A program made the position numbers and the translations under genes. 64,000 nt of DNA from Taeniopygia guttata. Its lineage: Eukaryota; Chordata; Aves; Passeriformes; Estrildidae. The stretch is taken from positions 3,027,001 to 3,091,000 of the forward strand of contig NC_133059.1 in NCBI RefSeq assembly GCF_048771995.1. The letters are read 5' to 3'. This document shows positions 990-61,100 of this stretch, piece after piece. Every line of letters begins with the position of its first letter. Position 1 is the first letter of the stretch. Below the pieces are notes generated by a model that ran no database searches, had not been told where the DNA came from, and saw nothing but the letters and a program-made list of their open reading frames with translations.

Positions 990-1910
990 TTTTCCCGGGA
1001 ATTCCGGCTGCTCACACTGGTCTGGGGTGGGTGACACTGGCCCTGACCCTGGGGATGAACTGGGATGAACTGGGATGAACTGGGAGGGACTGGAGCCCTA
1101 CAAACCCCAAACCTGCCCCATTTTTAATGGGAATTTTTGGGTTTTTCGGGAATTTTGGGTTTTTTTGGGAATTTTCCCGGGAATTCCGGCTGCTCACACT
1201 GGTCCAGCGGCGGGGGCACGCTGCCCCTGACCCTGGGGATGAACTGGGATGAACTGGGATGAACTGGGAGGAACTGGAGCCCTACAAACCCCAAACCTGC
1301 CCCGTTTTTAATGGGAATTTTTGGGTTTTTTGTGAATTTTGGGTTTTTTGGGAATTTTCCCGGGAATTCCGGCTGCTCACACTGGTCCAGCGGCGGGGGC
1401 ACGCTGCCCCTGACCCAGGGGATGAACTGGGATGAACTGGGATGGACTGGGATAAACTGGAGCCCTACAAACCCCAAACCTGCCCCGATTTTAATGGGAA
1501 TTTTTGGGTTTTTCGGGAATTTTGGGGTTTTTTTTGGGAATTTTCCTGGGAATTCCGGCTGCTCACACTGGTCTGGGGTGGGTGACACTGGCCCTGACCC
1601 TGGGGATGAACTGGGAGGAACTGGAGCCCTACAAACCCCAAACCTGCCCCGTTTTTAATGGGAATTTTTGGGTTTTTCAGGAATTTGGGGTTTTTTTGGG
1701 AATTTTCCCGGGAATTCCGGCTGCTCACACTGGTCTGGGGTGGGTGACACTGGCCCTGACCCTGGGGATGAACTGGGATGAACTGGGAGGGACTGGGAGG
1801 GACTGGAGCCCTACAAACCCCAAACCTGCCCCGTTTTTAATGGGAATTTTTTTGTTTTTTGGGAATTTTGGGAATTTTTGGGAATTTTCCCGGGAATTCC
1901 GGCTGCTCAC
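990..1910. repeat. CLPTM1 exon 7 donor array, about 180-bp units
   Basis: Five units follow exon 7 in transcript order, with exon-like parts near 1727, 1565, 1373, 1192 and 1011. Those at 1373 and 1192 keep the Ser-Val-Pro-Pro-Pro-Leu-Asp-Gln reading and the gtgagc donor intact; the others carry a diverged version. Spacer sequence is a tttttgggaatttt motif. Confidence 0.88.
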
Positions 1911-2031
1911 ACTGGTCCAGCGGCGGGGGCACGCTGCCCCTGACCCAGGGCGTGTGGTCATCCACCATGTTGATGGTCAGGTTGGGGTGCCAGTGGGAAA
2001 TGACCTCGACCGGCCCGAAATCCTCGGCCCT
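1911..2031 (-). CDS. CLPTM1: CLPTM1 coding exon 7 (last in window)
   Basis: It reads [19 protein letters not shown], then [11 protein letters not shown], then SVPPPLDQ, ending with the T of the next Tyr codon before gtgagc. The acceptor is ccttgcag. Five further copies of the exon end plus donor follow between about 1000 and 1750. Confidence 0.95.
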
Positions 2032-5000
2032 CTGCAAGGGAAAAGGACAAAAAATGGCAAAAAATCCCAAAAAAACCCCTCAAAAATCCAAAAAAACATT
2101 AAAAAACCCAAAAAACAAACAAAATAATAAAAAAAACCAAACCAAAATAAAACTAAACAAAAAAAACAACAAAAAAACCCAAAAAACCAAATAAGAAACC
2201 TCCCAAAACCCTAAAAAAATTTTAAAAACCGTAAAAAATTCCCATAAAAACCCCAAGAAAAACCCCAAAAAAACACCAAAAATCATAAACCCCCACCCAA
2301 AAAAAAACCCTTAAGAAACCACAAAAATAACCAAAAACAAACCACAAAAAAGCAAAAAAAAAAAATCAAAAAAAAATCCCAAACAAACCCCAACAATGCA
2401 AAAAAACCCTCAAGAAACACAAAAAAAAACTAAAAACCCCAAAACAAACAAAAAAACCACAAAAACCCACGAAAAACAAAAGCAAAACAAAAAAGAAACT
2501 AAAAAAAGCCACAAAAATACACAAAAAACCTCAAGAAACCCAAAAAAAGCCAACCCCCCCCCCAAAAAAAATCCAAGGCCAAAAAAACCCCAAAAAACCC
2601 CAAAAAAACAAAACAAAAAAACACTGCAAAAAACCCCCAAAACCAAAAAAGAACCTAAAATCCCCCAAAAAACTCAAAAAAAGCCCAAAAAACACCAAAA
2701 ATCAAAAAAGAACTAAAAAAAACCAAAAAAACACCCAAAACAAAAGACAACCACATGAAACACCAAAAAAACCCCAAAAAAGACCCTAAAAATCCCAACC
2801 CCCCCCAAAAAAAAACTCAAGAAACCCCAAAAAAAGAGACCCCAGAAATTTTTTCTTAATTTGTAAAAAAAAAAATTTAAAAAAAAATTAAAAAATACAA
2901 AAAAACTCCACAAATTCAAAAAAATCCCCATAAAATCCGAAACATCCCCAAAAATCTCCCCCAAAATGATAAAAATCCCCCAAAACCGCAGGAAATCCCA
3001 GGAAATTCCCAAATCCCGGAATTCCCACCTTGATCATTTCGGGATCCGCCTCCGTCTCCCCCGTCAGGAGGTTTTTGGTTTTCTGGAATCGCCGCCGCTT
3101 GTATTTGTTTATCACTGAAAAAATGGGAAAAATCGGGGAAAATTGGGGGAAAATTGGGAAAAATGGGGAAAATTTGGGGAAAATTTGGGGAAAATTTGGG
3201 GAAAATTTGGGGGGAAATGGGGGAAAATGGGAAAAATTGAGAAAAAAGGGGGGGAAATTAGGAACAAATTGGGAAAATGGGGGGAAATGGGGGGAATTTG
3301 GGAACAAATTGGGAAAATGGGGGGGAAATTAGGGGAAAATTGGGGAAAATTTGGGAAAATGGGGGGAAAATGGGGAAATTTAGGAGGAAATTGGGGGGAA
3401 ATAGGGGGAAATGGGGAAAAATGGGGTAAAATGGGGGGAATGGGGAAAAATGGGGGTAAATGGGGGAAATTTGGGAAAAATTGGGAAAATGGGGGGGAAA
3501 TTAGGGGAAAATTGGTGAAAATGGGGAAAATTTGGGAAAATGGGGGGTAAATTAGGGGAAAATTTGGGAAAATGGGGGGGAAATGGGGGAAAATGCGGAA
3601 AAATGGGGTAAAATGGGGGGAAATGGGGAAAAATGGGATTTGGAAAAATCAGATCCCTCCCATCCCTGAGGGATTTGGAACCCAAAAATCTGGGAATTTC
3701 TGGGAATTCTCCCATTCCTGAGGGATTTGGTACCAAAAAAACTGGGAATTTCTGGGAATTCTCCCATTCCTGAGGGATTTGGTACCAAAAAAATGGGAAT
3801 TTCTGGGAATTCTCCCATTCCTGAAGGATTTGAGGCCATTTTTGAGGGAATTTGGGGCCATTCCTGAGGGATTTGGGGCCATTCCTGAGGGGATTTGGGG
3901 CCATCCCTGAGGGATTTGGGCCATTCCTGAGGGGATTTGGGGCCATTCCTGAGGGGATTTGGGGCCATTCCTGGGGGGATTTGGATCCCAAAGCTCGGGA
4001 ATTGATGGGAATTCCCAGAATTTCCCAGGAATTCCTGGAATTCCGTACTCCTGGAAGTGTGCACAGTGCCCAGGCTGATCCCAACCCCATTCCTGAGGAG
4101 ATTTGGGGCCATTCCTGAGGGATTTGGGGCCATTCCTGAGGGGATTTGGGGCCATTCCTGGGTGGATTTTGATCCCAAAGCTCGGGAATTGATGGGAATT
4201 CCCAGAATTTCCCAGGAATTCCGGGAATTCCGTACTCCTGGAGGTGTGCACGGTGGCCAGGCCGATCCCAACCCCATTCCTGAGGGGATTTGGGGCCATT
4301 CCTGAGGGATTTGGGGCCATTCCCGGGGGGATTTTGATCCCAAAGCTCAGGAATTGATGGGAATTCCCAGAATTTCCCAGGAATTCCTGGAATTCCATAC
4401 TCCTGGAGGTGTGCACAGTGCCCAGGCTGATCCCAACCCCATTCCTGAGGGGATTTGGGGCCATTCCTGAGGGATTTGGGGCCTTTCCTGAGGGGATTTG
4501 GGGCCATTCCCGGGGGGATTTGGATCCCAAAGCTCGGGAATTGATGGGAATTCCCCGAAAATTCCCGGAATTTCCCGGAATTCCGTACTCCTGGAGGTGT
4601 GGACGGTGGCCAGGCGCCGGTAGAGGCTCTTCTGCCGCGGGTCGGGGTGGAAGCCGCTCTTGGTGAAGTAGACGTGGACGTAGATGGATCCGTTCCGCTG
4701 CACGCTCTGGGAAAAAAACACGGAAAAGGTCGGGAAAAACACGGGAAAAAAACGGGAAAAACCCAATTAAAAAAACAACCAGAAAGCCTTGGAAAAATGG
4801 CACAAAAAAATCCAGAAAAAATCCAGGGAAAATCCCAAATATCCCACAGAAAAAGCCAGAAAAATTCCCGATCCCACGTGGAATTCTCTTTTCCTGATCA
4901 CAAATTCCCATTTCCCAAACTCCAAATTCCCTTTTCCGACCCCAAATTCCAGTCCCAGATCCCAAATCCCTGGGGAAGATCCCAGGATTCCAGTTCCCAC

Positions 5001-8000
5001 ATAGAATTCCCCTTTGCCTGATCCCAAATTCCCTTTTCCCGACCCCAAATCCCCTTTCCTGATCCCAAATTCCCCTTTCCTGACCCCAAATTCCCTTTTC
5101 CTAATCACAAATTCCCTTTCCCACATCCCAAATTCCCATTCCCAGATCCCAAATCCCTTAGGAAGATCCTGGAATTCCCATTCCCACATGGAATGCTCTT
5201 TCCCAAATCCCAAATCCCCATTCCCAAATCCCAAATTCCCTTTTCCTGACCCCAAATCCCCATTCCCGGACCCCAGAATTCCAGGAATTCCCGGAATTCC
5301 GGGATCCCACCTGGGAGATGTCCACCTCCCCCGCGTGCTCATAGCAGCCGTCGGAATTCCCTTTTCCTGATCCCAAATTCCCTTTTCCAGCCCCAAATTC
5401 CCCTTTCCTGATCCCAAATCCCAAATTCCCATTCCCAGATCCCAAATTCCCATTCCCAGATCCCAAATCCCTCGGGAAGATCCTGAAATTCCCATTCCCA
5501 CATGGAATGCTCTTTCCCAAATCCCAAATCCCCATTCCCAAATCCAAAATTCCCTTTTCCTGATCCCAAATTCCCTTTTCCATCCCCAAATCCACATTCC
5601 CAAACCCCAAATTCCCCTTTCCTGATCCCAAATCCCAAATTCCCTTTTCCTAATCACAAATCCCCATTCCCAAATCCCAAATCCCCATTCCCAGATCCCA
5701 AATTCCCATTCCCAAACCCCAATTTCCCATTCCCAAACCCCAAATCCCCATTCCCAGACCCCAGAACTCCCGGAATTCCGGGAATTCCGGGATCCCACCT
5801 GGGAGATGTCCACCTCTCCCGCGTGCTCGTAGCATCCGTCGGAATTCCAACCCCGAATTCCCTTTTCCAGCCCCAAATTCCCTTTTCCTGATCCCAAATC
5901 CCAAATCCCCATTCCCACATCCCAAATTCCCATTCCCAGATCCCAAATCCCTTGGGAAGATCCTGGAATTCCCATTCCCACATGGAATGCTCTTTCCCAA
6001 ATCCCGAATCCCCATTCCCAAATCCAAAATTCCCTTTTCCAGCCCCAAATTCCCTTTTTCCAACCCCAAATCCCCTTTTCCCAACCCCAAATCCCCATTC
6101 CCAGACCCCAGAATTCCCGGAATTCCGGGAATTCCCAAATCCCACCTGGGAGATGTCCACCTCCCCCGCGTGCTCGTAGCAGCCGTCGGAATTCCCTTTT
6201 CCAGCCCCAAATTCCCTTTTCCTGATCCCAAATTCCCTTTTTCTGATCCCAAATTCCCTTTTCCTGATCCCAAATCCCAAATTCCCTTTCCCAAATCCCA
6301 AATTCCCATTCCCAGATCCCAAATTCCCTTTCCCAGATCCCAAATCCCCCGGGAAGATCCTGGAATTCCCATTCCCACATGGAATTCCCTTTCCCAAACC
6401 CCAAATCCCCATTCCCAAACCACAAATTCCCTTTTCCAGCCCCAAATTCCCTTTTTCCAGCCCCAAATCCCCTTTTCCAGCCCAAAACCTCCACTCCCGG
6501 ACCCCAGAACTCCGGGAATTCCGGGAATTCCGGGATCCCACCTGGGAGATGTCCACCTCGCCCGCGTGCTCGTAGCATCCGTCGGAATTCTCGCCGCTGC
6601 TCCAGTCTCCGTAGACCAAATCCCGCTTTTCCCAGAACAGGGCGGAGCTGAGGTTGAAATCCGTAAAGTGCTCGTGCTCCGAGATGTAAACGTGCAGATC
6701 CTGGGAAAGGGACGGAAACACGGGAATTTGTCCCAAAATCACGGGGATTCATCCCGAAAATCCCAGGAGTCATCCCGAAAATACCAGGGATTCATCCCGA
6801 AAATCCTGGGAATTCGTCCCAAAAATCCCAGGGATTCGTCCCAAAAATCCCAGGGATTCGTCCCTAAAATCCCGGGAATTCATCCCCAGGGATTCATCCC
6901 AAAAATCCCGGGGATTCGTCCCAAAAATCCTGGGATTTTATCCCAAAAATCCTGGGAATTCATCCCCGGGAATTCGTCCCAAAAATCCTGGGGATTCGTC
7001 CCAAAAATCCTGGGGATTTGTCCCAAAATCCCGGGGATTCGTCCCAAAAATCCCGGGGATTTATCCCAAAAATCCTGGGAATTCATGCCCGGGAATTCAT
7101 CCCAAAAATCCCGGGAATTCGTCCCAAAAATCCCGGGGATTCGTCCCAAAAATCCCAGGGATTCGTCCCAAAAATCCCAGGAATTCATCCCAAAAATCCC
7201 GGGGATTCGTCCCAAAAATCCCGGGGATTCATCCCTGGGAATTCGTCCCAAAAATCCCGGGGATTCGTCCCAAAAATCGTGGGAATTAATCCCTGGGAAT
7301 TCGACCCAAAAATCCTGGGAATTCGTCCCAAAAATCCCGGGCATTTGTCCCAAAAATCCTGGGGATTCGTCCCAAAAATCCTGGGAATTCAGCCCCAGGA
7401 ATTCGTCCCAAAAATCCCGGGAATTTATCCCAAAAATCCCTGGAATTTATCCTCAAAATCCTAAGAATTTATCCTAAAAATCCTCAGAATTTATCCCAAA
7501 AATCCTGAGAATTTATCTCAAAAATCCCGGGAATTTATCCCAAAAATCCTGGGAATTGATCCCTGGGAATCCATTCCCAAAATCCCAGGAATTCATTTAA
7601 AAAATCCTGGGAATCCATCCCAAAAATCCCTGGGAACGTTCCCCAGTGTCGCCAGGATCCCAGATTTGGGTTCTGATCCCGGATTTCCCCCCCAATCCCA
7701 CATTCCCACATTCCCAAATCCCAGAATTCCCGAAATTCCTGAACTTCCCGGAATTCCAGCCGACCATGAGGGTGTCCTTGGGGAAGAGGTTCCTGCTGAG
7801 ACTCCGGGTATTGATCCCAGATCCAGGTGCTGATCCCGGATTTCCCCCCAATCCCGGATCCCGGATTTCCCCCCACATTCCCAAACCCCAGAATTCCCGA
7901 AATTCCCGGAATTCCCGGAATTCCGGCTGACCATGAGGGTGTCCTTGGGGAAGAGGTTCCTGCTGGGGTTCCAGGTTCTGATCCCGGATCCGGGTGCTGA

Positions 8001-11000
8001 TCCCGGATTTCCCCCCACATTCCCACATCCCAGAATTCCCAAAATTCCCAAAATTCCCGGAATTCCCAGAATTCCCGCCGACCATGAGTGTGTCCTTGGG
8101 GAAGAGGTTCCTGCTGGAGTTCCAGGTTCTGATCCCGGATTTCCCCCCAATCCCACATTCCCACATTTCCAAACCCCAGAATTCCCGGAATTCCCGAAAT
8201 TCCCGGAATTCCCGGCATTCCGACCATGAGTGTGTCCTTGGGGAAGAGGTTCCTGCTGGGGCTGCGGGCGCCGTTCCCGTCTCCGTCGCTCTCCTGCGGC
8301 GTCGGCGCGCGCCGGAACCAGCTGGAGATGGCCCAGATGATGAAAATCCTGCGGGAACGGGAAAAACGCCGGAATGACGGGGAAAATCCCGCGGAAATTC
8401 CGGGAAAAATCCCGTGGGAATTCCGGGGAAAATCCCTTGGAAATTTTGGGAAAAAACTCTTGGGAATTCCAGGGAAAATCCCTCGGGAATTCTGGAAAAA
8501 ATCCCTTGGGAATTGCCGAAAATCCCTCAGGAATTTTGGAAAAAATCCCTTGGGAATTCCAGAAAAAAATCCCTAGGGAATTCCGGGGAAAATCCCTTGG
8601 GGATGCCAGAAAACCCTTCAGGAATTCTGGAAAAAAATCCCTCGGGAATTCTGGAAAAAATCCCTCGGGAATGCTACAAAATCCCTCAGGAATTCCAGAA
8701 AGGTCCCTTGGGAATTCCAGGGAAAATCCCTCGGGAATTCCAGGGGAAAATCTTTGGGAATTCCAGAAAAAAATCCCTTGGGAATTGCCAAAATACCCCT
8801 TGGGAATTCTGGAAAAAATCCCGCGGGAATTGCTGAAAATCCCTCGGGAATTCTGGAAAAAATCCTTTGGGAATTGCCAAAAATCCCTTGGGAAATCCAG
8901 AAAAAAATCCCTTGGGAACTCCAAGGAAAATCCCTCGGGAATTCCAGAAAAAAAATCCCTTGGGAATTCTGGAAAAAAATCCCTCCGGAATTCCAGAAAA
9001 ATCCTTTGGGAATTCCAGAAAAAAATCCTTTGGGAATTCTGGAAAAAATCCCACGGGAATTCCAGGGGAAAACAAAAAATCCCGCGGAAATTCCGGGGAA
9101 AATCCCGCGGAAATTCCAGGGAAAATCCCTCTGGAATTGCCGAAAATCCCTTGGTAATTCCAGAAAAAATCCCTCGGGAATTGCTGAAAATCCCTCAGGA
9201 ATTCTGGAAAAATCCATTGGGAATTACGGAAAAAATCCCTTGGGAATTCCGGGGGAAAACAAAAAATCCCGCAGGAATTCCGGAAAAAATCCCACGGGAG
9301 ATCCAGAAAAAAATTCCTTGGGAATGCCAAAAAATCCCGCGGGAATTGCCGAAAATCCCTTGGGAATTCTGGAAAAAATCCCTCAGGAATTTCGGGGAAA
9401 ATCCCTCGGGAATTGTGGAAAAATCCCTCGGGAATACCGGAAAAAAATCCCTCGGGAATTCCAGAAAATCCCTTGGGAATTGCTGAAAGTCCCTCAGGAA
9501 TTCTGGGAAAATCCCACGGGAATTCCAGAAAAATCCCTTCAAAATTCCAGGGAAAATCCCTCAAGAATTGCAGAAAAATCCCTCGGGAATTCCAGAAAAA
9601 TCCCTTGGAAATTCCAGGGAAAAACCCTCGGGAATTCTGGAAAAAAACCCTTGGGAATTCCAGGGAAAAACCCTCGGGAATTCTGGAAAAAAATCCCTCG
9701 GGAATTCCAGGGAAAATCCCTCCGGAATTCTGGAAAAATCCCGACCCCTTTAACCCCTTCAGTCCCAATCGATCCCAATCAATCCCAATCAATCCCTTCC
9801 CCCCATTTAACCCCTTCAGTCCCAATCAATCAATCCCAATCGATCCCAATCAATTCCCGCCCATTTAACCCCTTCAGTCCCAATCGATCCCAATGGATCC
9901 CAATCCAATTCCCGACCCCTTTAACTCCTTCAGTCCCAATCAATCCCGATCGATCCCAATCGATCCCAATGGATTCCAATCAATTCCCGATCCCTTCCGC
10001 CCCTTTAACCTCTTCAGTCCCAATTGATCCCCAATGGATCCCAATCGATCCAAATCGATCCCAAAGTGATCCCAATCAATTCCCACCCCTTTAACCCCTT
10101 CAGTCCCAATGGATCCCGATCAATCCCAATCAATTCCCGCCCCTTTAACCCCTTCAGCACCACACTCACCTGAACAGGACGCCCTTCACCACCTGCCAGG
10201 CGTTGGGGGCCGCCGGCGGCTGCTGCTGCCCCGGTGGGCTCTCGGTACCGGTACCGGCACCGGTAACAGCCCCGGCGGCGCCGTTACTGCTGGACACCTG
10301 CGGGACCGGAACCGGAACCGGTCAGTGACACCGGTACTGACCCAAACCCCACCCCGGTACCGGCCCCGGTATCGCCGTTACTGCTGGACACCTGCGGGAC
10401 CGGAACCGGGATGGGTCAGTGACACCGGTACCGGTACCGGTACCGACCCAAGCCCCACCCCGGTTCCAGCCCCGTCCCGATCCCTTCCCGGTCACCGATT
10501 CAGTACCGGCCCCGTCCCGGTAACCGACACCGCTCCGGTACCGAACTGGTGCCAGTCTCACCCCAATCCCTCCCCGGTACCGGCCCCAGCCCAGTCCCGG
10601 TGCCTTTTGCGGTCCTGCCCCATCCGGACCTATCCCGGTCCTGGCGCCGTTCCCTGACCCGGTCCCGGAGCTGTTCCGGGTCCTGGAGCTGTTCCCGGTC
10701 CTGTTCCCGGTCCCGTTTCCCTGTCCCTGATTCCCGTTCCTGGTCCTGGTCCTGGTCGTGTCCCAGTCCCCGGTCCCGGTCCCGTTTCTCTGTCCCCAAT
10801 CCCGTTCCCGGTCCTGGTCCTGGTCCTGTTCCCGTTCCCGGAGCTGTTCCCGGTCCCGTTTCTCTGTCCCTGATCCCATTCCCAGTCCCAATCATGGCCC
10901 CGTTCCCGGTCCCGTTTCCCTGATCCCCGTTCCCATTCCCAGTCCCGTTCTCTGCTCCTGTCCCAGTCCCGGAGCTGTTCCTGGTCCTGTTCCCGGTCCC

Positions 11001-12425
11001 GTTTCTCTGTCCCTGATCCCCGGTCCCATTCCCGGTCCCTGTCCTCTTCCCGGTCCCGTTTCTCTGTCCCTGACCCTGTTCCCGGTCCCGTTCTCTGCTC
11101 CTGTTCCAGTCCCGGAGCTGTTCCTGATCCGTGTTCCTAGTCCTGTCCCAGTTCCCGTTCCCGGTCCCATTTCCCTATCCCCAATCCTGTTCCCGGTCCC
11201 GTTCTCTGCTCCTGCCCCGGTCCCGGAGCTGTTCCCGGTTCCCGGTCCCGGTCCCGTTTCTCTGTTCCCATTTCTCTGTCCCTGATCCCTGGTCCCGGTC
11301 TCTGCTCCTGCCCCAGTCCTGGAGCTGTTCCCGGTCCGGTTTCTCTGTCCCTGATCCCCGGTCCCGTTCCCGGTCCCCGTCCTGTTCCAGTCCCCGTTCC
11401 CGGTCCTGTTCCCGGTCCCGGTCCCGTTCTCTGCTCCTGTTCCCGGTCCCGGAGTTTTCCTGGTGCCGTTTCTCTGCCCCTGTTCCGGTTCCCGGTCCCG
11501 TTCTCTGCTCCTGTCCCAGTCCCAGAGCTGTTCCCGGTGCCGTTTCTCTGTCCCCGTTCCCGTTCCCAGTCCCGTTCTCTGTCCCTGATCCCCGTTCCCG
11601 GTCCCTTCCCCCATCCTGGTTCCTGCTCTCGGTTTCCAGTCCCGTTCCCGTTCCCTGCCCCGTTCCCGGTCCCATTCTCTGCTCCTGTCCCAGTCCCGGA
11701 GCTGTTCCTGGTCCCGTTTCTCTGTCCCAGTCCCAGTTCCCGTTCCCGGTCCCCGTCCTGTTCCCGGTCCTGTTCCAGTCCCCATTCCCGGTCCCGTTTC
11801 CCAGTCCCAGTCCCCGTTCCCGGTCCCGTTCTCTGCTCCTGTCCCAATCCCGGAGCTGTTCCCGGTGCCATTTCTCTGTCCCTGATCCCCATTCCCGGTC
11901 CTGTCCCAGTCCCCATTCCCGGTCCCGTTTCTCTGTCCCTGATCCTGTTCCCGGTCCCGTTCTCTGCTCCTGTCCCAGTCCCCGACTTTGCCCCCGGACC
12001 TTGCCCCGTTCCCGGTCCCGGTGTCCGTCTCTGTTCCCTTCCCTGTCCCCGTTCCCTGTCCCCGTTCCCGTTCCCTGTCCCCGTTCCCGTTCCGGACCTG
12101 TCCCTGTCCCCGGTCCCGTTCCCTGTCCCTGTTTCCCTGTCCCCGTTCCCGTTCCCGTTCCGGACCTGCCCCGGGCCCGTTCCCGTTCCCCGTTCCCGTT
12201 CCCCGTTCCCGTTCCCGTTCCCTGTCCCCGTTCCCGGTTCCGGACCTGTCCCGGGCCCGTTCCCTGTCCCCGTTCCCGGTTCCCTGTCCCTGTTCCCTGT
12301 CCCCATTCCCTGTCCCGGGCCCGTTCCCTGTCCCCATTCCCCGTTCCCTGTCCCCGGTTCCGGACCTGTCCCGGGCCCGTTCCCGTTCCCGGCCCCGCCG
12401 CCGCCTCCGTCCCCGGCGCCGCCAT
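1911..12425 (-). CDS. CLPTM1: CLPTM1, ER multi-pass membrane protein, N-terminal 265 codons (gene continues left of window)
   Basis: CLPTM1-family membrane protein. In mammals it acts in the ER and retains GABA-A receptor subunits; its paralogue CLPTM1L is a glycolipid scramblase. Seven exons run leftward: 12425-12366, 10297-10170, 8348-8225, 6700-6542, 4706-4589, 3114-3029 and 2031-1911. They join to 796 nt in one open frame, ending one base into a Tyr codon. Recognisable conserved stretches are [76 protein letters not shown] and [11 protein letters not shown] hydrophobic segment near residues 57-72 is the likely N-terminal membrane anchor, followed by a soluble domain; the later membrane helices lie outside the window. 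The start ATG follows a CpG-rich promoter and begins [11 protein letters not shown], like mammalian MAAA starts. All introns are tandem repeat, and five of the seven exons have extra donor-end copies. Identity is near certain; the exact N-terminus is less so. Confidence 0.95.
2036..3025. repeat. A/C-rich simple sequence, CLPTM1 intron 6
   Basis: Runs of aaaaacccc and caaaaaa type with no period I can fix and no coding signal on either strand. Confidence 0.75.
3029..3114 (-). CDS. CLPTM1: CLPTM1 coding exon 6
   Basis: It completes the split Met and reads [17 protein letters not shown] to EADPEMIK. The acceptor is ttttttcag and the donor is AAG-gtggga. It is one of the few exons here with no visible copies of its ends. 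Confidence 0.95.
3118..3640. repeat. ggggaaaatt repeats, CLPTM1 intron 5 left part
   Basis: Purine-rich plus-strand repeat of roughly 9-16 bp (gggaaaatggggg types). It forms the end of intron 5 next to the exon 6 acceptor. Confidence 0.8.
3645..4588. repeat. CLPTM1 exon 5 donor array
   Basis: Three further copies of the exon 5 end and donor (near 4395, 4233 and 4046) are separated by cattcctgaggggatttggggc subrepeats of about 22 bp. Each unit also carries GGGAATTCCC (4007, 4194, 4359, 4546), a symmetrical kappaB-type decamer. The left end is three 60-bp units with attctcccattcctgaggg. Confidence 0.88.
4589..4706 (-). CDS. CLPTM1: CLPTM1 coding exon 5
   Basis: It reads [14 protein letters not shown], then [12 protein letters not shown], then LATVHTSR, and supplies the A of the next Met codon. 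The donor is AGGA followed by gtacgg. Three more copies of the exon end plus donor lie near 4395, 4233 and 4046. Confidence 0.95.
4710..6541. repeat. CLPTM1 exon 4 donor array with ttcccaaatccc subrepeats
   Basis: Three long units, of unequal length (about 350-490 bp), each contain a copy of the exon 4 end plus donor (about 6146-6193, 5795-5845, 5306-5357). They are embedded in short cattcccaaatccc repeats. An older part without exon sequence lies at 4710-5300. Confidence 0.88.
6542..6700 (-). CDS. CLPTM1: CLPTM1 coding exon 4
   Basis: It begins [16 protein letters not shown] and ends [15 protein letters not shown]; 53 codons in phase 0 at both ends. The acceptor is tttcccag and the donor is CAG-gtggga. 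The last roughly 45 bases with the donor recur at about 6146-6193, 5795-5845 and 5306-5357. Confidence 0.95.
6704..7640. repeat. 20-bp minisatellite, CLPTM1 intron 3
   Basis: About 40 units of gattcgtcccaaaaatcccg type. No exon copies are seen in it. Confidence 0.85.
7645..8224. repeat. CLPTM1 exon 3 donor array, about 150-165-bp units
   Basis: Three units after exon 3 in transcript order repeat the [10 protein letters not shown] coding end and the gtcgg or gtcagc donor (near 8090, 7931 and 7765). Spacers of the ggaattcccg motif separate them. Confidence 0.9.
8225..8348 (-). CDS. CLPTM1: CLPTM1 coding exon 3
   Basis: It encodes [18 protein letters not shown] and ends [11 protein letters not shown]. 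The first part is the predicted N-terminal membrane segment. The donor is ATG followed by gtcgga, a weak site. The end of the exon with the donor is repeated three more times downstream in the transcript, near 8090, 7931 and 7765. Confidence 0.93.
8352..10164. repeat. two minisatellites, CLPTM1 intron 2
   Basis: 8352-9735 holds about 24-bp units of aatccctcgggaattccag type with AAAAA spacers. 9735-10164 holds units of taaccccttcagtcccaat with ccaatcgat subrepeats. No exon copies are seen. Confidence 0.82.
10170..10297 (-). CDS. CLPTM1: CLPTM1 coding exon 2
   Basis: It reads [15 protein letters not shown] and onward to [13 protein letters not shown], the last stretch matching vertebrate CLPTM1 closely. 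The acceptor is cgcag at 10302-10298 and the donor is AG-gtgag. The acceptor with the first bases of the exon is duplicated once in the intron near 10370-10400. Confidence 0.93.
10282..10435. repeat. duplication over the CLPTM1 exon 2 acceptor
   Basis: The first roughly 15 bases of exon 2, the cag acceptor and about 40 bases of intron recur about 90 bp further into intron 1, near 10372-10435. Confidence 0.75.
10450..12365. repeat. C-rich minisatellite, CLPTM1 intron 1
   Basis: Repeats of gttcccggtcccgtt and of a longer ctctgctcctgtcccagtcc type. The right end (about 12090-12300) repeats the tail and donor of exon 1. Very high GC with strong strand bias. Confidence 0.82.
12366..12425 (-). CDS. 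CLPTM1: CLPTM1 coding exon 1
   Basis: This exon encodes residues 1-20, Met-Ala-Ala-Pro followed by a Gly/Thr/Pro-rich tail ending in Gly-Gln. The donor is CAG then gtccgg, a poor U1 match. The last part of the exon with this donor recurs in the intron near 12241, 12161 and, degraded, 12097. Splicing to the next exon at phase 0 keeps the frame. Confidence 0.75.
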
Positions 12426-12429
12426 CTTT

Positions 12430-12800
12430 GCTGCGCCGCCTCTCGCGAGACTTCCGGGGGCAGCCCCCACGTGACCGCGCGGAGGGGCGGGAATCTCCGC
12501 AAACCGCGCCCTTTTCGTGACGTCATCATCACACCCACCAATAGCAGCGCGCGGCCCGCCCCAGGCGGGAGGGGGTTTCCCCGCCCCGCCCCCTCGGCCG
12601 AGCTCAGCCAATGGGAGAGCGCCCCGCCCCCAGCGCGCGCTCAGGGGGTGTTCCCTTATGTGACGTCACTGGCGCGCTCAGCCAATGGCGGCGCGGTGCG
12701 CTCCCGGCGGGGGTTTCCCCGACCGCGCCCCCGGCGGTGACGTCACGCCGGGCTCAGCCAATGGCGGCGCGGCCCGCGCGGGGATTTCCAGGTCCGGCGG
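12430..12800. promoter_or_regulatory. divergent CLPTM1/RELB promoter: four-fold CRE / CCAAT / kappaB cassette
   Basis: CpG-rich DNA between the two gene starts. CCAAT lies at 12538, 12608, 12682 and 12758. The CRE palindrome TGACGTCA lies at 12518, 12661 and 12738. NF-kappaB-type sites are GGGGGTTTCCCC at 12571 and 12709, GGGGATTTCC at 12780 and a degraded one near 12644. The order CRE, CCAAT, kappaB recurs with a period of about 65-77 bp, so the promoter is a tandem repeat of one module, with the CRE lost in the second copy. No TATA box is evident. RELB transcription is known to be NF-kappaB responsive in mammals, which fits; shared use by CLPTM1 is inferred. Confidence 0.8.
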
Positions 12801-12839
12801 CGGCGCGGCCGCGGGGGGCGGCGGCGGGAGCGGCACCGG

Positions 12840-13193
12840 CGGCTCCGGGACCCCAACCGGGACCGGAACCGGGATCCGCACCGAGACCGGAACCGAGACC
12901 GGCACCGGCACCACCGGGACCCGCACCGGGACCGGAACCGGGACCGGCACCACCGGGACCCGCACCAAGACCGGAACCGGGACCGGGACCCGCACCGAGA
13001 CCGGAACCGGGACCCGCACCGGCACCAACTAGACCCACTCCGGGACCGGGACCCCCACCGGCACCACCGGGACCCGCACCGGGACCCGCACCAGCAGCAC
13101 CGGGACCCGCACCGGGACCGGGACCGGGATCCGCACCGGGACCGGGACCGGCACCAGCGGGACCCGCACCGGGACCGGGACCCGCACCGGGAC
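12840..13193 (+). repeat. accggaaccgggacc repeats in the presumed RELB 5' leader
   Basis: Units of 6-18 bp of accgggacc type run up to the candidate RELB start codon. They would lie in the 5' UTR if transcription starts in the CCAAT region. Confidence 0.7.
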
Positions 13194-13209
13194 ATGGCAC
13201 TGCCGCTCG
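13194..13209 (+). CDS. RELB: RELB candidate first coding exon
   Basis: ATG in a strong context (G at -3, G at +4) opens MALPL, then a good donor G-gtgagc follows. Phase 1 fits the candidate acceptor at 13510. There is no conserved protein to confirm it; translation could instead start at the in-frame ATG at 13540. Confidence 0.45.
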
Positions 13210-37200: not shown

Positions 37201-37404
37201 TAACTAACCGGGTAACAGCGGGCTGGGCAGCGGGAGGTGTTCCTGCAGCGCCTGACGGACAGCCAGCGCAGCCAGGCCTTCCGCTTCACCTACCTGCCCC
37301 GGGACACCGGTAACTAACCAGTTAACTAGTTAACTAACTAACTAACTAACCGGGTAACAGCGGGCTGGGCAGCGGGAGGTGTTCCTGCAGCGCCTGACGG
37401 ACAG

Positions 37405-37449
<45 letters not shown>

Positions 37450-43745: not shown

Positions 43746-43752
43746 TGTGTGG

Positions 43753-43758: not shown

Positions 43759-43779
43759 ATAATGGATGAACAGCCACGA

Positions 43780-48675: not shown

Positions 48676-48719
48676 TCCCAGTATCAAACTGGGAACAGAA
48701 CCCGGAAGAGGAACCGCTC

Positions 48720-48971: not shown

Positions 48972-48984
48972 GTGAGCGGCGATG

Positions 48985-51420: not shown

Positions 51421-51458
51421 CCAGGACCCTCCTGCTCCTCCCCCCTTTCCCTTGGCAG

Positions 51459-52020
51459 GTCCTGGAAGGTTCCGGAAGGTCCTGGAAGGTTCCGGAGCCC
51501 CGTGGAAGGTCCTGGAAGGTTCTGGAAGGTTCCAGAAGGTCCCGGAAAGTTCCAGAAGGTCTTGGAAGGTTCCGGAAGGTTCTGGAAGTTTCCAGAAGGT
51601 CCCGGAAGGTTCCAGAAGGTCCCGGAAGGTTCTGGAAGGTCCCGGAAGGTTCCGGAAGGTCCTGGAAGGTTCCAGAAGGTCCCGGAAGGTTCCAGAAGGT
51701 CCTGGAAGGTCCCGGAAGGTCCTGGAAGGTCCCGGAAGGTTCCAGAGCCCTGTGGAAGGTCCCGGAAGGTTCCGGAAGGTCCTGGAAGGTCCCGGAAGGT
51801 CCTGGAAGGTTCCAGAAGGTCCCGGAAGGTCCTGGAAGGTCCCGGAAGGTTCCGGAAGGTCCTGGAAGGTTCCGGAGCCCCGTGGAAGGTTCCAGAAGGT
51901 CCCAGAAGGTTCTGGAAGGTCCCGGAAGGTCCTGGCAGGTCCTGGAAGGTGCCGGAAGGTCCTGAAAGGTTCTGGAAGGTTCCAGAAGGTCCCGGAAGGT
52001 TCCGGAAGGTCCCGGAAGGT
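51459..52020 (+). repeat. CLASRP: GGAAGGT minisatellite, probably inside the CLASRP 5' UTR exon
   Basis: About 55 units of 10 bp (ggaaggtccc, ggaaggttcc, ggaaggtcct). The best acceptor, a pyrimidine tract ending cccttggcag, lies upstream at 51458. I see no ATG in the array, so it could be 5' UTR without blocking the start codon. Confidence 0.75.
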
Positions 52021-52026
52021 GTCGGG

Positions 52027-52125
52027 ATGTGGCACGAGGCGCGGAAGCACGAGCGGAAGCTGCGCGGGATGATGGTGGACTACAAGAAACGCGCCGAGCG
52101 GCGCCGCGAGTACTACGAGAAAATC
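52027..52125 (+). CDS. CLASRP: CLASRP first coding exon
   Basis: MWHEARKHERKLRGMMVDYK, then KRAERRREYYEKI, with donor ATC-gtgagc. The ATG is the first in the exon. The upstream exonic sequence back to a likely acceptor at 51458 is a GGAAGGT minisatellite. Confidence 0.97.
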
Positions 52126-55100
52126 GTGAGCGCAGACCGGTTCCGGCTGGTTCCGGCCAGTTTGGGGGGACCCAGAACCAGTTTGGGGGGTTCTTGTCCC
52201 AGTTTGGGGGCACCCAGAACCAGTTTGGGGGACCCAGAACCAGTTTGAGGGGTTCTTGTCCCAGTTTGGGGGCACCCAGAACCAGTTTGGGATGTCCCTG
52301 TCCCAGTTTGGGGGGTTCTTGTCCCAGTTTGGGGGCACCCAGAACCAGTTTGGGGGACCCAGAACCAGTTTGGGGGCACCCAGAACCAGTTTGGGGGCAC
52401 CCAGAACCAGTTTGGGGGTCCTGAACCAGTTTGGGGGACCCAGAACCAGTTTAGGGGCACCCAGAACCAGTTTGGGGTGACCCAGAACCAGTTTGGGGGC
52501 ACCCAGAACCAGTTTGAGGGGTTCTTGTCCCAATTTGGGGGGGCCCAGAACCAGTTTGGGCCAGTTCACACCAGTTTGGGGGTTCTTGTCCCAGTTTGGG
52601 GGGCCCAGAACCAGTTTAGGCCAGTTCACACCAGTTTGAGGGGTTCTTGTCCCAGTTTGGGGGACCCAGAACCAGTTTGGGGACACCCAGAACCAGTTTG
52701 GGGGCACCCAGAACCAGTTTGGGGGGTTCTTGTCCCAGTTTGGGGGGCCCAGAACCAGTTTGGGGGTTCTTGTCCCAGTTTGGGGGGCCCAGAACCAGTT
52801 TGGGAGGTCCCTGTCTCAGTTTGGGGGGTTCTTGTCCCAGTTTGGGGGGTTCTTGTCCCAGTTTGGGGGGTTCTTGTCCCAGTTTGGGGGACCCAGAACC
52901 AGTTTGGGGGCACCCAGAACCAGTTTGGGGAGACCCAGAACCAGTTTGGGGAGACCCAGAACCGGTTTGGGGAGACCCAGAACCAGTTTGGGCCAGTTCA
53001 CACCAGTTTGAGGGGTTCTTGTCCCAGTTTGGGGGGCCCAGAAACAGTTTGGGAGGTTCTTGTCCCAGTTTTTGGGCCGACATTCCCAGTTTGGAGTCCG
53101 ACATTCCCATTTTTCACCCCAAATTCCCATTTTTTCGCCCCAAATTCCCATTTTTCGCCCCAAATTCCCATTTTTCCCCCCAAATTCCCATTTTTCACCC
53201 CAAATTCCCAATTTCCCCGTCAGTCCCACCCCACTCCTCCTTTCCCCTCCATCCCAGCCGCGTCCCCTCTTTCCCAAAGACCCCTCCCCCCATTCCCACC
53301 TTTCCCATCCGTCCCTAATCCCGGGATTTTCCCGTTTTTCCCAGAAAAAGGACCCGGCGCAGTTCCTGCAGGTGCACGGCCGCGCCTGCAAGGTGCACCT
53401 GGACTCCGCCGTGGCGCTGGCGGCCGAGAGCCCCGTCAACATGTGAGCCTGCCCGGAATTCCCGCCCGGAATTCCCTGGAATTGCCCCTGGAATATTCCT
53501 TGGATCACTCCCCAGGGATGGAGAAAATCGGGATTTTCCAGGAGATGGAATTTGGGCGGTTTGGGGCAAATTTGGAAAGATTCGGAGCCCCTATTCCAAT
53601 TATTCTGAAGGATTTTGGTCATTTCAGGGATAAATTCCCTGGAATTATCTCTGGAATGTTCCTGGGATCACTCCCCAGGCATGGAGAAAATCGGGATTTT
53701 CCTGGGGTTGGAATTTGGGTGGTTTTGGGCAAATCCGGGAGGATTTGGAGCCCTTATTCCAATTTTTCTGAAGGATTTTGCTCATTTCAGGGATAAATTC
53801 CATGGAATTATCTCTGGGATGTTCCTGGGATCACTCCCCAGAGATGCAGAAAATCGGAATTTCCCTGGGGTCTAAATTTGGGCGGTTTTGGGCAAATCTG
53901 GAAAGATTCGGAGCCCCTATTCCAATTTTTCTGAAGGATTTTGGTCATTTCAGGGATAAATTCCATGGAATTATCTCTGGAATATCGCACCCAGGGATGG
54001 AGAAATCCGGGATTTCCCAGGGGTTGGAATTTGGGCGGTTTTGGGCAAATCTGGAAAGATTTGGAGCCCCTATTCCAATTTTTCTGAAGGATTTTGGTCA
54101 TTTCAGGGATAAATTCCATGGAATTATCTCTGGAATATTCCTTGGATCACTCCCCAGGGATGCAGAAATCCGGGATTTCCCTGGGGTCCAAATTTGGGCG
54201 GTTTTGGGCAAATCCGGGAGGATTTGGAGCCCCTATTCCAATTTTTCTGAAGGAATTTTGGTCATTTCAGGGATAAATTCCATGGAATTATCTCTGGAAT
54301 GTTCCTGGGATCGCCTCCCTGGCATGGAGAAAATCGGGATTTCCCAGGGGTCTAAATTTGGGCGGTTTTGGGCAAATCTGGAAAGATTCGGAGCCCCTAT
54401 TCCGATTTTTCTGAAGGATTTTGCTCATTTCAGGGATAAATTCCATGGAATTATCTCTGGAATATTCCTGGGATCGCCTCCCTGGGATGCAGAAAATCGG
54501 GATTTCCCAGGGGTTGGAATTTGGGTGGTTTGGGGCAAATCCGGGAGGATTTGGAGCCCCTATTCCAATTTTTCTGAAGGATTTTGGTCATTTCAGGGAT
54601 AAATTCCATGGAATTATCTCTGGAATATTCCTGGGATCGCCTCCCTGGGATGGAGAAAATCGGGATTTCCCTGGGGTCTAAATTTGGGCGGTTTTGGGCA
54701 AATCTGGAAAGATTTGGAGCCCCTATTCCAATTTTTCTGAAGGAATTTTGGTCATTTCAGGGATAAATTCCATGGAATTATCTCTGGAATATTCCTGGGA
54801 TCGCCCCCCTGGCATGGAGAAAATTGGGATTTCCCAGGGGTTGGAATTTGGGTGGTTTTGGGCAAATCCGGGAGGATTTGGAGCCCCTATTCCAATTTTT
54901 CTGAAGGAATTTTGGTCATTTCAGGGATAAATTCCATGGAATTATCTCTGGAATATTCCTGGGATCGCCTCCCTGGCATGGAGAAATCCGGGATTTTCCA
55001 GGAGATAGAATTTGGGTGGTTTTGGGCAAATCTGGAAAGATTCGGAGCCCCTATTCCGATTATTCTGAAGGAATTTTGGTCATTTCAGGGATAAATTCCA

Positions 55101-58100
55101 TGGAATTATCTCTGGAATATTCCTGGGATCACTCCCCAGGGATGGAGAAAATCGGGATTTTCCATGGGGTCCAAATTTGGGCGGTTTTGGGCAAATCCGG
55201 GAGGATTTGGAGCCCCTATTCCAATTTTTCTGAAGGAATTTTGGTCATTTCAGGGATAAATTCCATGGAATTATCTCTGGAATGTTCCTGGGATCGCCTC
55301 CCTGGGATGCAGAAAATCAGGATTTCCCTGGGGTTGGAATTTGGGCGGTTTTGGGCAAATCTGGAAAGATTCGGAGCCCTTATTCCAATTTTTCTGAAGG
55401 ATTTTGCTCATTTCAGGGATAAATTCCATGGAATTATCTCTGGAATGTTCCTGGGATCACTCCCCAGGCATGGAGAAAATCGGGATTTCCCTGGGGTTGG
55501 AATTTGGGTGGTTTTGGGCAAATCCGGGAGGATTCGGAGCCCCTATTCCAATTTTTCTGAAGGAATTTTGCTCATTTCAGGGATAAATTCCCTGGAATTA
55601 TCTCTGGAATGTTCCTGGGATCGCCTCCCTGGCATGGAGAAAATCGGGATTTTCCAGGAGATGGAATTTGGGCGGTTTTGGGCAAATCTGGAAAGATTTG
55701 GAGCCCCTATTCCAATTTTTCTGAAGGAATTTTGGTCATTTCAGGGATAAATTCCATGGAATTATCTCTGGGATATTCCTTGGATCACTCCCCAGGGATG
55801 GAGAAATCCGGGATTTCCCTGGGGTTGGAATTTGGGCGGTTTTGGGCAAATCTGGAAAGATTCGGAGCCCTTATTCCGATTTTTCAGAAGGAATTTTGGT
55901 CATTTCAGGGATAAATTCCATGGAATTCTCTCTGGAATGTTCCTGGGATCACCCCCCTGGCATGGAGAAAATCGGGATTTCCCAGGGGTTGGAATTTTGG
56001 GCGGTTTTGGGCAAATCCGTGAGGATTTGGAGCCCCTATTCCAATTTTTCTGAAGGATTTTGCTCATTTCAGGGATAAATTCCCTGGAATTCTCTCTGGA
56101 ATATTCCTTGGATCACTCCCCAGGGATGGAGAAATCTGGGATTTTCCAGGAGATGGAATTTGGGTGGTTTTAGGCAAATCTGGAAAGATTTGTAGCCGCT
56201 GTTCCAATTTTTCTGAAAGAATTTTGCTCATTTCAGGGATAAATTCCATGGAATTATCTCTGGAATGTTCCTTGGATCACTCCCCAGGGATGCAGAAATC
56301 TGGGATTTCCCAGGAGATGGAATTTGGGTGGTTTTAGGCAAATCTGGAAAGATTCGGAGCCCCTATTCCAATTTTTCTGAAAGAATTTTGCTCATTTCAG
56401 GGATAAATTCCATGGAATTATCTCTGGAATATTCCTGGGATCGCCTCCCAGGGATGCAGAAAATCGGGATTTCCCTGGGGTCCAAATTTGGGCGGTTTTG
56501 GGCAAATCCGTGAGGATTCGGAGCCCTTATTCCAATTTTTGTGAAGGAATTTTGGTCATTTCAGGGATAAATTCCATGGAATTATCTCTGGAATATCCCT
56601 TGGATCACACCCAGGGATGGAGAAATCCGGGATTTTCCAGGAGATGGAATTTGGGTGGTTTTGGACAAATCTGGAAAGATTTGGAGCCCCTATTCCAATT
56701 TTTCTGAAAGAATTTTGCTCATTTCAGGGATAAATTCCATGGAATTATCTCTGGAATATTCCTTGGATCACTCCCCAGGGATGGAGAAAATCGGGATTTT
56801 CCAGGGGTTGGAATTTGGGTGATTTTGGGCAAATCCGGGAGGATTTGGAGCCTCTATTTCAATTTTTCTGAAGAAATTTTGCTCATTTCAGGGATAAATA
56901 CCATGGAATTATCTCTGGAATATTCCTTGGATCACTTCCCAGGGATGGAGAAATCCGGGATTTCCCTGGGGTCTAAATTTGGGCGGTTTTGGGCAAATCT
57001 GGAAAGATTTGGAGCCCCTATTCCGATTTTTGTGAAGGATTTTGGTAATTTCAGGGATAAATTCCATGGAATTATCTCTGGAATGTTCCTGGGATCACTC
57101 CCCAGGGGGATGGAGAAAATCAGGATTTTCTAATTTTTCTAAATTTGGGTGGTTTTGAGCAAATCTGGGGAGAAATCAGGTTTTATTGGAGTCATCACTC
57201 CCATTTTTTTCCTGGTGGAAAAGGGGGAATTCTGCTCATTCCAGGGAGAAAATCCCATGGGATCCCCACCCTGGAATCACCCCCAGGGCTGGATAAATCC
57301 CAATTTTCCCCCAAAATGAAATTTAACCTGGTTTTACCGATCAACCCAAAGAAAATTCTGCTTTTTTGGGAACCACCTTTCCCCTTTTTTTTGCTGAAGG
57401 AAAGTGGGGAATTCTGAGCATTCCGGGTGGGAATTCCGGGATTTTTCCCATTCCCAAGGCTCGGTTTTTCCCGGCAGGATGCCCTGGCAGGGGGACACCA
57501 ACAACATGATCGACAGGTTCGACGTCCGCGCTCACCTGGATTTCATCCCCATGTACACCCCGGCCCTGCTCAGCCCCACGTAAGATTCCCAAAAAATTCC
57601 CATGAGATTCCCAAAAAAAATTCCCAAAAAAAATTCCCCCACAGTTTTGGGGCTGGCATCCCACCAGGACTGGGTGGGAGGGTCCTAAATCTGTGTTTTG
57701 ACCCCAAAATCTTCATTTGAGCTCGGAAAATCCCCTGAAATTCCACTTTGGATCCCCAAAATCCATCTTGGATCCCAATGATCCCTGTTTTGAGCCCAAA
57801 AATCCACATTGGATCTGTAAAAATCTGTTTGAGCTCCAAAATCCCCCCTTTGGAGCCATAAAATCTGTGTTTTTTTAGCAAAAAATCCCCCTTTGGATCC
57901 TCAAAATCCCCCTTTGGACCCATAAAATCCACATTGCATCCATAAAATCTCCATTTGAACCCCAAAATCCTTGCTTTTGTCCCAAAATTCTCTCAGAATT
58001 CCTGTTTTTCTAGCTCCCTGCAGTATGAATTGAACGAGCACAAATGCAACTACAACCCCTCCGAAATCCCCTTTTTTTTCCCCAAAATCCTCCCTTTTTT

Positions 58101-61100
58101 CTCCCAAATCCTCTCCTTTTAGGGCAAAGTTCCCGTTTGTACTCCAAAGTATCCCTTTAATCCCCAAATCCTTGTTTTGATCCCAAAATCCCCTCAGAAT
58201 TCCCGTTTTTCCAGTTGAGCAGGAATCAGACGAGCACAAATGCAGCTATGAGGGGGGAGACCCTCATAATCCGCCTTTTTTCCTCCCCAAATCCAACTTT
58301 TTTTAGCACAAAATACTTCTTTTATCCCTAAAATTCATCTTTAACCCCCAAAATCCCCATTTTGATCCTAAAATCCCCTCACAATTCACATTTTTCCAGC
58401 TCACCGGAGCAGGAACCAGATGAGCACAAATGCAGCTATGAGGGGGGAGGCCCTCATAATCCTCCTTTTTTCCCCCAAATCCAGCTTTCCCTCCCACCAA
58501 ATCCACTTTGGGACCCCAAAATCCACTTAGAACCCCCAAAATCCCCATTTTGATCCCTAAATCCCCTCAGAATTCCCAATTTCCCAGCATGCCAGAGCAG
58601 GAATCAGACAAGTACAAATGCAACTATGAGGGAAGAAAGCCTCATAATCCACCATTTTTCCCCCCAAATCCACCTTTTTTTAGCACAAAATCTTTCTTTG
58701 ATCCCTAAAATCCACTTTTAACCCCCCAAATCCCCGTTTTGATCCCAAAATCCCCTCAGAATTCCCGATTTTCAAGCTCACTAAAGCAGGAATCAGATGA
58801 GCACAAATGCAACTATGAGGGGCCCTCATAATCCACCTTTTTTCCTCCAAAATCCAGCTTTTTTTAGTACAAAATCCTCATTTGATCCCTAAAATTCATC
58901 ATTAACCCCCAAAATCCCTATTTTGATCCCAAAATCCCCTCAGAATTCCCATTTTTTCCAGCTCACCGGAGCAGGAAGCAGATGAGCAGAAATGCAACTA
59001 TGAGGGGGGAGGCCCTCATAATCCTCCTTTTTTCCCCCCAAATCCAGCTTTCCCTCCCATCAAATCCACTTTGGGACCCCAAAATCCACTTAGAACCCCC
59101 AAAATCCCAATTTTGATCCCAAAATCCCCTCAGAATTCCCATTTTCCAGCTCACCAGAGCAGGAAGCAGATGAGCAGAAATGCAACTATGAGCTGGGAGG
59201 CCCTCATAATCCGCCTTTTTTCCTCCAAAATCCAACTTTTTTTAGCACAAAATCCTCATTTTATCCCTAAAATTCATCTTTAACCCCCAAAATCCCCATT
59301 TTGATTCCAAAATCCCCTGACAATTCCCATTTTTCCAGCTCACCGGAGCAGGAATCAGATGAGCACAAATGCAACTATGAGGGGGGAGGCCCTCATAATC
59401 CGCCTTTTTTCCCCCCAAATCCAGCTTTCCCTCCCACCAAATCCACTTTGGGATCCCAAAATCCACTTTGAACCCCCAAAATCCCAATTTTGATCCCAAA
59501 ATCCCCTCAGGATTCCCATTTTTCCAGCTCACCGGAGCAGGAAGCAGATGAGCAGAAATGCAACTATGAGCCGGGAGGCCCTCATAATCCACCTTTTTTC
59601 CCCCCAAATCCACCTTTTTTTAGCACAAAATCTTTCTTTGATCCCTAAAATCCACTTTTAACCCCCCAAATCCCCATTTTGATCCCAAAATCCCCTCAGA
59701 ATTCCTGATTTTGCAGCTCTCCAGAGCAGAAATCTCACAAGCACAAATGCAACTATGAGGGGGGAGGCCCTCATAATCCACCTTTTTTCCCCCCAAATCC
59801 AGCTTTCCCTCCCACCAAATCCACTTTGGGACCCCAAAATCCACTTAGAGCCCCCAAAATCCCAATTTTGATCCCAAAATCCCCTCAGAAGTCCCAATTT
59901 CCCAGCATGCCAGAGCAGGAATCAGACAAGTACAAATGCAACTATGAGGGAAGAAAACCTCATAATCCACCATTTTTCCCCCCAAATCCACCTTTTTTTA
60001 GCACAAAATCCTCATTTTATCCCTAAAATTCATCTTTAACCCCCAAAATCGCTGTTTTGATCCCAAAATCCCCTCAGAATTCCCATTTTTCCAGCTCACC
60101 GGAGCAGGAATCAGATGAGCACAAATGCAACTATGAGGGGGGAGGCCCTCATAATCCTCCTTTTTTCCCCCCAAATCCAGTTTTTGCTCCCGTCAAATCC
60201 ACTTTGGGACCTCAAAATCCACTTAGAACCCCCAAAATCCCAATTTTGATCCCAAAATCCCCTCAGAATTCCCGATTTTCCAGCTCACCAGAACAGGAAT
60301 CTCACGAGCTCAAATGCAACTATGAGCTGGGAGGCCCTCATAATCCTCCTTTTTTCCCCCCAAATCCACCTTTTTTTAGCACAAAATCTCTCTTTGGTCC
60401 CTAAAATCCACCTTTAACCCCCCAAATCCCCGTTTTGATCCCAAAATCCCCTCAGAATTCCCGATTTTGCAGCTCACCAGAGCAGGAATCTCACGAGCAC
60501 AAATGCAACTATGAGGGGGGAAACCCTCATAATCCACCTTTTTTCCCCCAAAATCCACCTTTTTTTAGCACAAAATCTCGCTTTGATCCCTAAAATCCAC
60601 CTTTAACCTCCCAAATCCCCGTTTTGATCCCAAAATCCCCTCAGAATTCCCGATTTTCCAGCTCACCGGAACAGGAGTCAGACGAGCGCAAATGCAACTA
60701 CGAGCGGTACCGGGGCTTGGTGCAGAACGACTTCGCTGGCAGTGAGTCCATTTTTCCCTGTTTTTTTTGGGAATTCCGGCCGCTCCGGATCCCCCCCGGG
60801 TGGTTCCCGAGGGATTTAGGGAATGATTTGATGCCAAAATTCCCAATCCCAGTCTCGGAGGAGCAGTGCCTGTACCAGATCTACATCGACGAGCTCTACG
60901 GGGGCCTCCAGAAACCCAACGAGGATGAGAAGAAAAAGTGAGGGAAAAACGTTGGAATTCCTGGGAATTCCGGCTGGCAAAACACTGGGAATGTACCCCC
61001 ACACCCTTGGGAATGATCCTAATCCTGGGATAATGCCCCAAATCCCAGTTTTCCCCTCACTCCTTTGTTGGAATCTCCCCCAAAACCATCCTGGGAAGGG

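Follow-up and report, generated by a model that had tools for sequence, protein, structure and literature searches.

The stretch analysed here (hereafter the window) comprises 64,000 nucleotides of contig NC_133059.1 (C36, 4.45 Mb; positions 3,027,001–3,091,000) of Taeniopygia guttata and contains the genes CLPTM1, RELB and CLASRP, in which exon edges together with their splice sites are repeated in tandem into the neighbouring introns. The genes were found with human sequences and then modelled on local GT-AG sites, which gave seven exons for CLPTM1 (minus strand), 12 for RELB and seven for CLASRP (both plus strand), with GT-AG junctions and open frames. The frame is open throughout the joined coding sequence of each of the three models. 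In total, 48 splice junctions (25 donors and 23 acceptors) were examined in the window. Arrays detected with Tandem Repeats Finder (TRF) cover 88.6% of the window, with 92% of the intron bases inside them versus 22% of the exon bases.

Junction-centred 40-mers recurred at 12 of the 48 junctions (ungapped matches of at least 34 of 40 bases, no more than 4 kb away), and a gapped search added the donor of CLPTM1 exon 3, bringing the total to 13 junction arrays (Table 1). One block-shuffled window contained no recurring 40-mers at this threshold. Arrayed donors belong to CLPTM1 exons 1, 3, 4, 5 and 7 and to RELB exons 4, 5, 7 and 9; arrayed acceptors belong to CLPTM1 exon 2, RELB exons 5 and 9 and CLASRP exon 4 (60662). 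We refer to the additional copies of a junction as decoys. The 13 junction arrays listed in the original prediction all exist, 12 of them firmly, and the pattern that it saw as shared across neighbouring genes is present in CLPTM1, RELB and CLASRP. The weak case is CLPTM1 exon 1, where the array is of low complexity and, with the real site counted, GT occurs in no more than 5 of 31 alignments; among the decoy statistics, this array enters the outward count given below and none of the others. The repeat units indeed consist of coding bases plus the splice junction, typically with 27–77 coding bases, and the median copy spacing of the junction arrays is about 80–400 bases. All 170 aligned decoys (including 30 of CLPTM1 exon 1) sit outward of their own exon as direct repeats, and no inward decoys were found in a search that covered the exon and 300 bases past it. 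Copies of exons were also screened for with blastn-short in the introns lying wholly inside the window, using the length (at least 20 bases) and bit-score (>42.1 bits) thresholds of Hron et al. (2026). This returned 103 copies, 103 of 103 on the same strand and in the adjacent intron. Matches were obtained for 10 junctions, each of which had a median distance of 0 to the exon border; the same screen on shuffled introns gave 0 matches.

Table 1. Gene models and junction arrays, with coordinates given as window positions.
Feature	Position	Strand	Details
CLPTM1 exons 1-7	1911..12425	-	first coding exon 12366-12425; gene continues past the left end of the window
CLPTM1 exon 7 donor array	1015..1910	-	real junction 1910/1911; 5 decoys; 7 or 40 gap-free exonic bases
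CLPTM1 exon 5 donor array	4048..4588	-	3 decoys; 27 exonic bases per unit
CLPTM1 exon 4 donor array	5310..6541	-	3 decoys; 49 exonic bases
CLPTM1 exon 3 donor array	7764..8224	-	3 decoys; 35-44 exonic bases
CLPTM1 exon 2 acceptor duplication	10297..10391	-	1 decoy; spacing 94 bases
CLPTM1 exon 1 donor and low-complexity array	10471..12365	-	weak case
RELB, 12 coding exons	13194..41915	+	frame intact
RELB exon 4 donor array	16364..19730	+	21 decoys; 57 or 61 exonic bases; median spacing 159
RELB exon 5 acceptor array	20006..20983	+	11 decoys
RELB exon 5 donor array	21141..25391	+	24 decoys; up to 47 exonic bases; median spacing 176
RELB exon 7 donor array	26820..27499	+	4 decoys, each with 47 exonic bases
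RELB exon 9 acceptor array	30778..35456	+	38 decoys, upstream of the real acceptor
RELB exon 9 donor array	35672..37501	+	13 decoys; 77-87 exonic bases in 11 of 13
CLASRP coding exons 1-7	52027..63243	+	gene continues rightward beyond the window
CLASRP exon 4 acceptor array	58014..60662	+	14 decoys; median spacing 189

The arrays of the window are exon stuttering in a bird other than the chicken; in the 1.14-Gb, 41-contig assembly, hen egg lysozyme finds a best match with 56% identity over 56 residues. As defined by Hron et al. (February 2026; PMC12954441), exon stuttering is the exon-overlapping form of the sequence stuttering found on chicken dot chromosomes, and this publication overtakes the original prediction insofar as it held that such a system had no named description. 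In both cases the direct tandem expansion is local, takes place in introns and remains on the same strand and in the adjacent intron, and a lateral part of the exon is copied with its splice site into the neighbouring intron, with the source at the exon border. Tens of coding bases are copied in each, the coding sequence remains intact and the introns are heavily covered by simple tandem repeats (here 92% of bases). The difference lies in the species, which is chicken there and T. guttata here. RELB and CLPTM1 are not named in the main text of that paper, and neither do the words 'RNA-seq' and 'selection' occur in its main text. In its relevant sections, neither the survival of decoy splice sites nor the sharing of breakpoints is tested, and junctions are not compared with other positions in introns (PMC12954441).

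The pattern continues beyond the window. A location on a dot chromosome was considered from size and repeat content, namely the 4.45 Mb of contig C36 and a TRF coverage of 89% in a 264-kb block of it that includes the window. Decoys were present at 13 of 34 further junctions, belonging to the remaining exons of CLPTM1, to ERCC1, to CLASRP and to two copies of POLD1; uncertain junctions of CLASRP, ERCC1 and POLD1 were left out of this second set. One ERCC1 acceptor among the 13 is ambiguous, and none of the 4 further CLASRP junctions examined had decoys. CLPTM1 residues 420–442 recur about 20 times downstream of their own exon, with 19 decoys that are all GT (C36:3015030–3018659; block 88030–91659). 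ERCC1 residues ~201–258 and 271–297 occur twice in tandem (C36:3175198–3181966; block 248198–254966), and this tandem duplication seems to include whole exons. POLD1 is present twice in the assembly, at C39:445001–454500 (a 7.9-Mb contig) and at C40:76809501–76819500 (an 82-Mb contig). Both copies have introns made of tandem arrays (87–88% TRF), their mutual matches are ~69–85% identical, and a homologous intron measures ~3.0 kb in one and 5.5 kb in the other, on different contigs of one assembly.

Rel-family matches in the assembly lie on contigs C4, C5, C8 and C33, which would fit a chromosome order of the songbird type; this order and the gene labels of the paralogues are presumptive and follow from known gene positions. 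The paralogue on the 115.6-Mb contig C4, taken as REL, has a TRF coverage of 0 and 2.6% in two 3-kb loci that represent part of the gene, and the presumed RELA, on the 5.6-Mb contig C33, reaches 78–79%. The low values on C4 are a further likeness with chicken, where stuttering is absent from paralogues on other chromosomes (PMC12954441). That repeats were collapsed or invented during assembly of a hard-to-sequence chromosome is highly improbable. Regions of this kind are described as difficult to sequence and assemble (PMC12954441), but average copy identity in the ten larger arrays is 59–92%, unlike that of duplicated reads, and the modelled reading frames are intact. Moreover, the two diverged POLD1 copies show a like pattern on two contigs, and the chicken phenomenon was confirmed by its authors in raw nanopore reads for PHF8 (PMC12954441).

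The position of the arrays relative to the exons bears on how they arose. In the original prediction, junctions were the seeds of the arrays. On this reading, splice sites would provoke tandem duplication, via R-loops, transcription stress or repair. The 13 arrayed junctions in three adjacent genes fit this idea, and in the window donors are arrayed slightly more often than acceptors (9/25 vs 4/23). However, when the exon set was rotated along the window and repeated junctions were counted, 12 of 48 junctions were observed in recurring 40-mers against a mean of 36.5 expected (P = 0.0013), and 10 of 48 lay in TRF arrays against 41.5 expected (P = 0.0003). Junctions are depleted in arrays, about threefold relative to the rotation expectation, and not enriched; the arrays avoid them. 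Recurring 40-mer windows make up 78% of intronic, 25% of junction (12/48) and 13% of exon-interior windows. The junction-spanning arrays are conspicuous because their coding bases are easily recognised. The donor excess is also unclear in the second set, where 7 of 17 donors and 6 of 17 acceptors (one ambiguous) have decoys, and most arrays are dominated by a single breakpoint. In 16 of the 17 arrays with at least three decoys, most decoys share one exon end (within 3 bases), and 143 of 205 decoys in 18 arrays end at the dominant exon breakpoint, where breakpoints were taken from ungapped extension and can be shortened by an indel. This suggests one founding duplication per array followed by amplification, and not repeated seeding. 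Seeding at junctions is largely refuted by the rotation test, and we reject it as very unlikely.

The pattern is best explained, with a probability of about 0.8, by tandem duplication that is unbiased in position and is filtered by selection on exons. Tandem duplications of ~80–400 bases, judging from the median copy spacing, would occur at any position of this gene-rich stretch and would then undergo amplification and turnover. Wholly intronic ones would be unconstrained and would fill the introns, whereas those inside a coding exon would mostly break the protein and be lost. A duplication that spans one splice junction would keep the exon-proximal junction intact and could survive, so that spanning a junction would be nearly the sole tolerated route for an array into an exon. 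Splicing would then use the copy that is joined to the exon body (the first one in a donor array, the last one in an acceptor array), and the others would be decoys. The duplication mechanism, the filtering by selection and the use of the exon-proximal site are inferred.

Purifying selection would leave the middle of an exon in single copy. The statement in the original prediction that exon middles are single-copy does not hold wholly, as 13% of the interior windows recur and exon 12 of RELB holds an array. At window positions 41704–41813 this exon contains ~12 in-frame copies of a 9-base unit (CGGAATTCC), which encode a repeated Glu-Phe-Pro. Expansion inside an exon happens where it is tolerable, and we take this repeat to lie in the tolerant C-terminal activation region of the protein. 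GGAATTCC motifs that resemble the exon 12 unit are frequent in nearby introns.

Several observations weigh against unbiased duplication filtered by selection on exons. Firstly, several arrays have more than one breakpoint, as is the case for CLPTM1 exon 7 (7 and 40), CLPTM1 aa377 (20 and 42–43), the acceptor of RELB exon 9 (55–58 and 20–21) and POLD1 aa563 (31, 36 and 64). Secondly, a gradient of similarity toward the exon is significant in just 3 of 10 arrays. Where it is seen, the gradient counts as support: at the acceptor of RELB exon 9, identity to the real edge is 98% for the closest decoy but 56% for the most distant one (Spearman -0.49, P = 0.002), and exchange at the array edge is therefore plausible there. 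Thirdly, microhomology at the exon breakpoints was barely over control (mean percentile 0.61; 18 arrays, P = 0.047) and we make no claim on it. Lastly, the splice sites of the decoys survive almost perfectly, beyond what simple neutral decay predicts.

In the window, 139 of 140 decoys (12 arrays) have an intact splice dinucleotide, either GT or AG, and the sole loss is a decoy of the RELB exon 9 donor with TA for GT. Outside the window the dinucleotide is intact in 87 of 87 further decoys. The ambiguous acceptor, ERCC1 aa141, was left out here, since none of its 10 alignments has AG and we regard them as copies of other parts that were misaligned. Distinct window variants at splice dinucleotides number 1, versus 7.7 expected from non-CpG dinucleotides in these arrays (P = 0.006). 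The initial measure of retention used junction-centred queries against the real copy; as centring and reference could bias it, it was redone with exon-anchored queries and then with a majority reference, which removes a bias of the real-copy reference. With exon-anchored queries and the real copy as reference, 185 of 185 splice dinucleotides were kept versus 81.6% in the control. With the majority reference this became 183 of 183 versus 87.7% of all control dinucleotides, and 16 of 16 arrays were fully kept versus 10.1 expected (P = 0.0002); exon-side controls were kept in 94.3% of cases (P = 0.013). The effect shrank in these repeats, yet it persisted. In the splice-centred set, 2 of 141 decoys failed to match.

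Across 19 arrays, no shared variants were found at splice dinucleotides, where 4.9 would be expected from exonic and 7.7 from intronic columns. Private variants numbered 2, against 4.9 (exonic columns, P = 0.14) and 7.7 (intronic columns, P = 0.018). In the exon-anchored, shared- and private-variant and majority-reference tests, the arrays of the second set were restricted to those with at least 5 decoys (7/12), six of which entered the microhomology and breakpoint analyses. The majority-reference test also dropped arrays with fewer than 2 anchored decoys, which kept 16 of 19.

Only 3 of the 140 window decoys could be used alone in-frame and stop-free. Therefore, either splicing reliably takes the exon-proximal copy or selection keeps the decoys functional. 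In the first case the decoys are harmless passengers that are either young or recycled, and it is presumably position that decides which of the near-identical sites is spliced. In the second case, which would be an addition to duplication with exon filtering and not an alternative to it, the decoys would be used in splicing or would be kept because exchange within the array turns them into the functional edge. If the exon edge and the decoys keep exchanging, a decoy with a dead site would be a future lethal exon edge, and only arrays with intact decoys would be safe. The retention of splice dinucleotides above controls (P from 0.0002 to 0.013) and the lack of shared variants at them (4.9–7.7 expected) are in line with such selection. 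So are the non-CpG columns in the exonic part of the window decoys, where variation is higher at third codon positions (57 variants in 136 columns) than at first and second positions together (69 in 282), and this excess fits copies that repeatedly descend through a functional exon.

Other features speak against a reading specific to splice sites. Conservation is broad around the exon edge, without a sharp peak, and the lowest variant rate of the donor arrays is found inside the exon, at -18 to -13. The deficit of private changes relative to exonic columns is not significant, and in CpG columns the second codon positions are the most variable (variants in 12/32 first, 22/23 second and 27/33 third positions), contrary to a coding pattern. 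Copies within an array are related, which makes effective numbers small, and the scarcity of decoys that are in-frame and stop-free argues against routine use. Selection on the decoys is possible but unlikely. We find it somewhat more doubtful still that selection keeps the decoy splice sites alive to the extent that the arrays would be self-maintaining banks of interchangeable functional exon edges, with up to 38 near-identical competing sites tolerated purely by position.

In ordinary GC-rich minisatellites, too, imperfect units that measure tens to hundreds of bases follow one another head-to-tail. The arrays described here share this arrangement; unlike such minisatellites, they fill nearly all introns and include coding exon edges. 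Another parallel is the minisatellite of human IFI6 (6-16), which Turri and colleagues reportedly showed in 1995 to give multiple splice donor sites. In both systems each tandem unit offers a splice donor, but for IFI6 alternative use that yields isoforms is reported, with two downstream units used (PMC4526556). The IFI6 repeat consists of short 12-base units at the end of an exon in a single gene. In the window, nearly all decoys would break the frame. The arrays here also differ in that many junctions are arrayed and that median copy spacings are ~80–400 bases. A literature search for splice-donor minisatellites at exon-intron boundaries gave no match.

Erosion of the protein at stuttered edges was considered as well and rejected. 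Of the stuttered codons, 130 of 181 were identical to the human sequence; this is less than at unstuttered edges (373 of 467, P = 0.035) but does not differ from all other codons (P = 0.93). Within the Rel-homology region of RELB the values were 68/104 versus 159/191 (P = 0.001); this is a post hoc subset on which we make no claim.

CLPTM1 and RELB stand head-to-head around ~400 bases without TRF arrays (window 12424–12830), a stretch with several sites that resemble NF-kB motifs. In human, the two genes are oriented in the same direction. Downstream of RELB, at window positions 43787–48675, lies a 4.9-kb array with a 23-base unit (~213 copies, 91% matches), which has long open frames on both strands.

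These results extend exon stuttering beyond the chicken, to an NF-kB gene and its neighbours. They also indicate that apparent targeting of splice junctions needs no targeting, since junction-spanning duplications can be mere survivors. The preservation of the decoy splice sites is an added finding and the part worth pursuing. The arrays form a natural experiment on splice-site choice, in which a decoy has the same splice dinucleotide as the real site and as a rule also the majority of its flanking bases. As almost any choice of a decoy would break the message, the pick of the exon-proximal copy by the spliceosome is directly testable.

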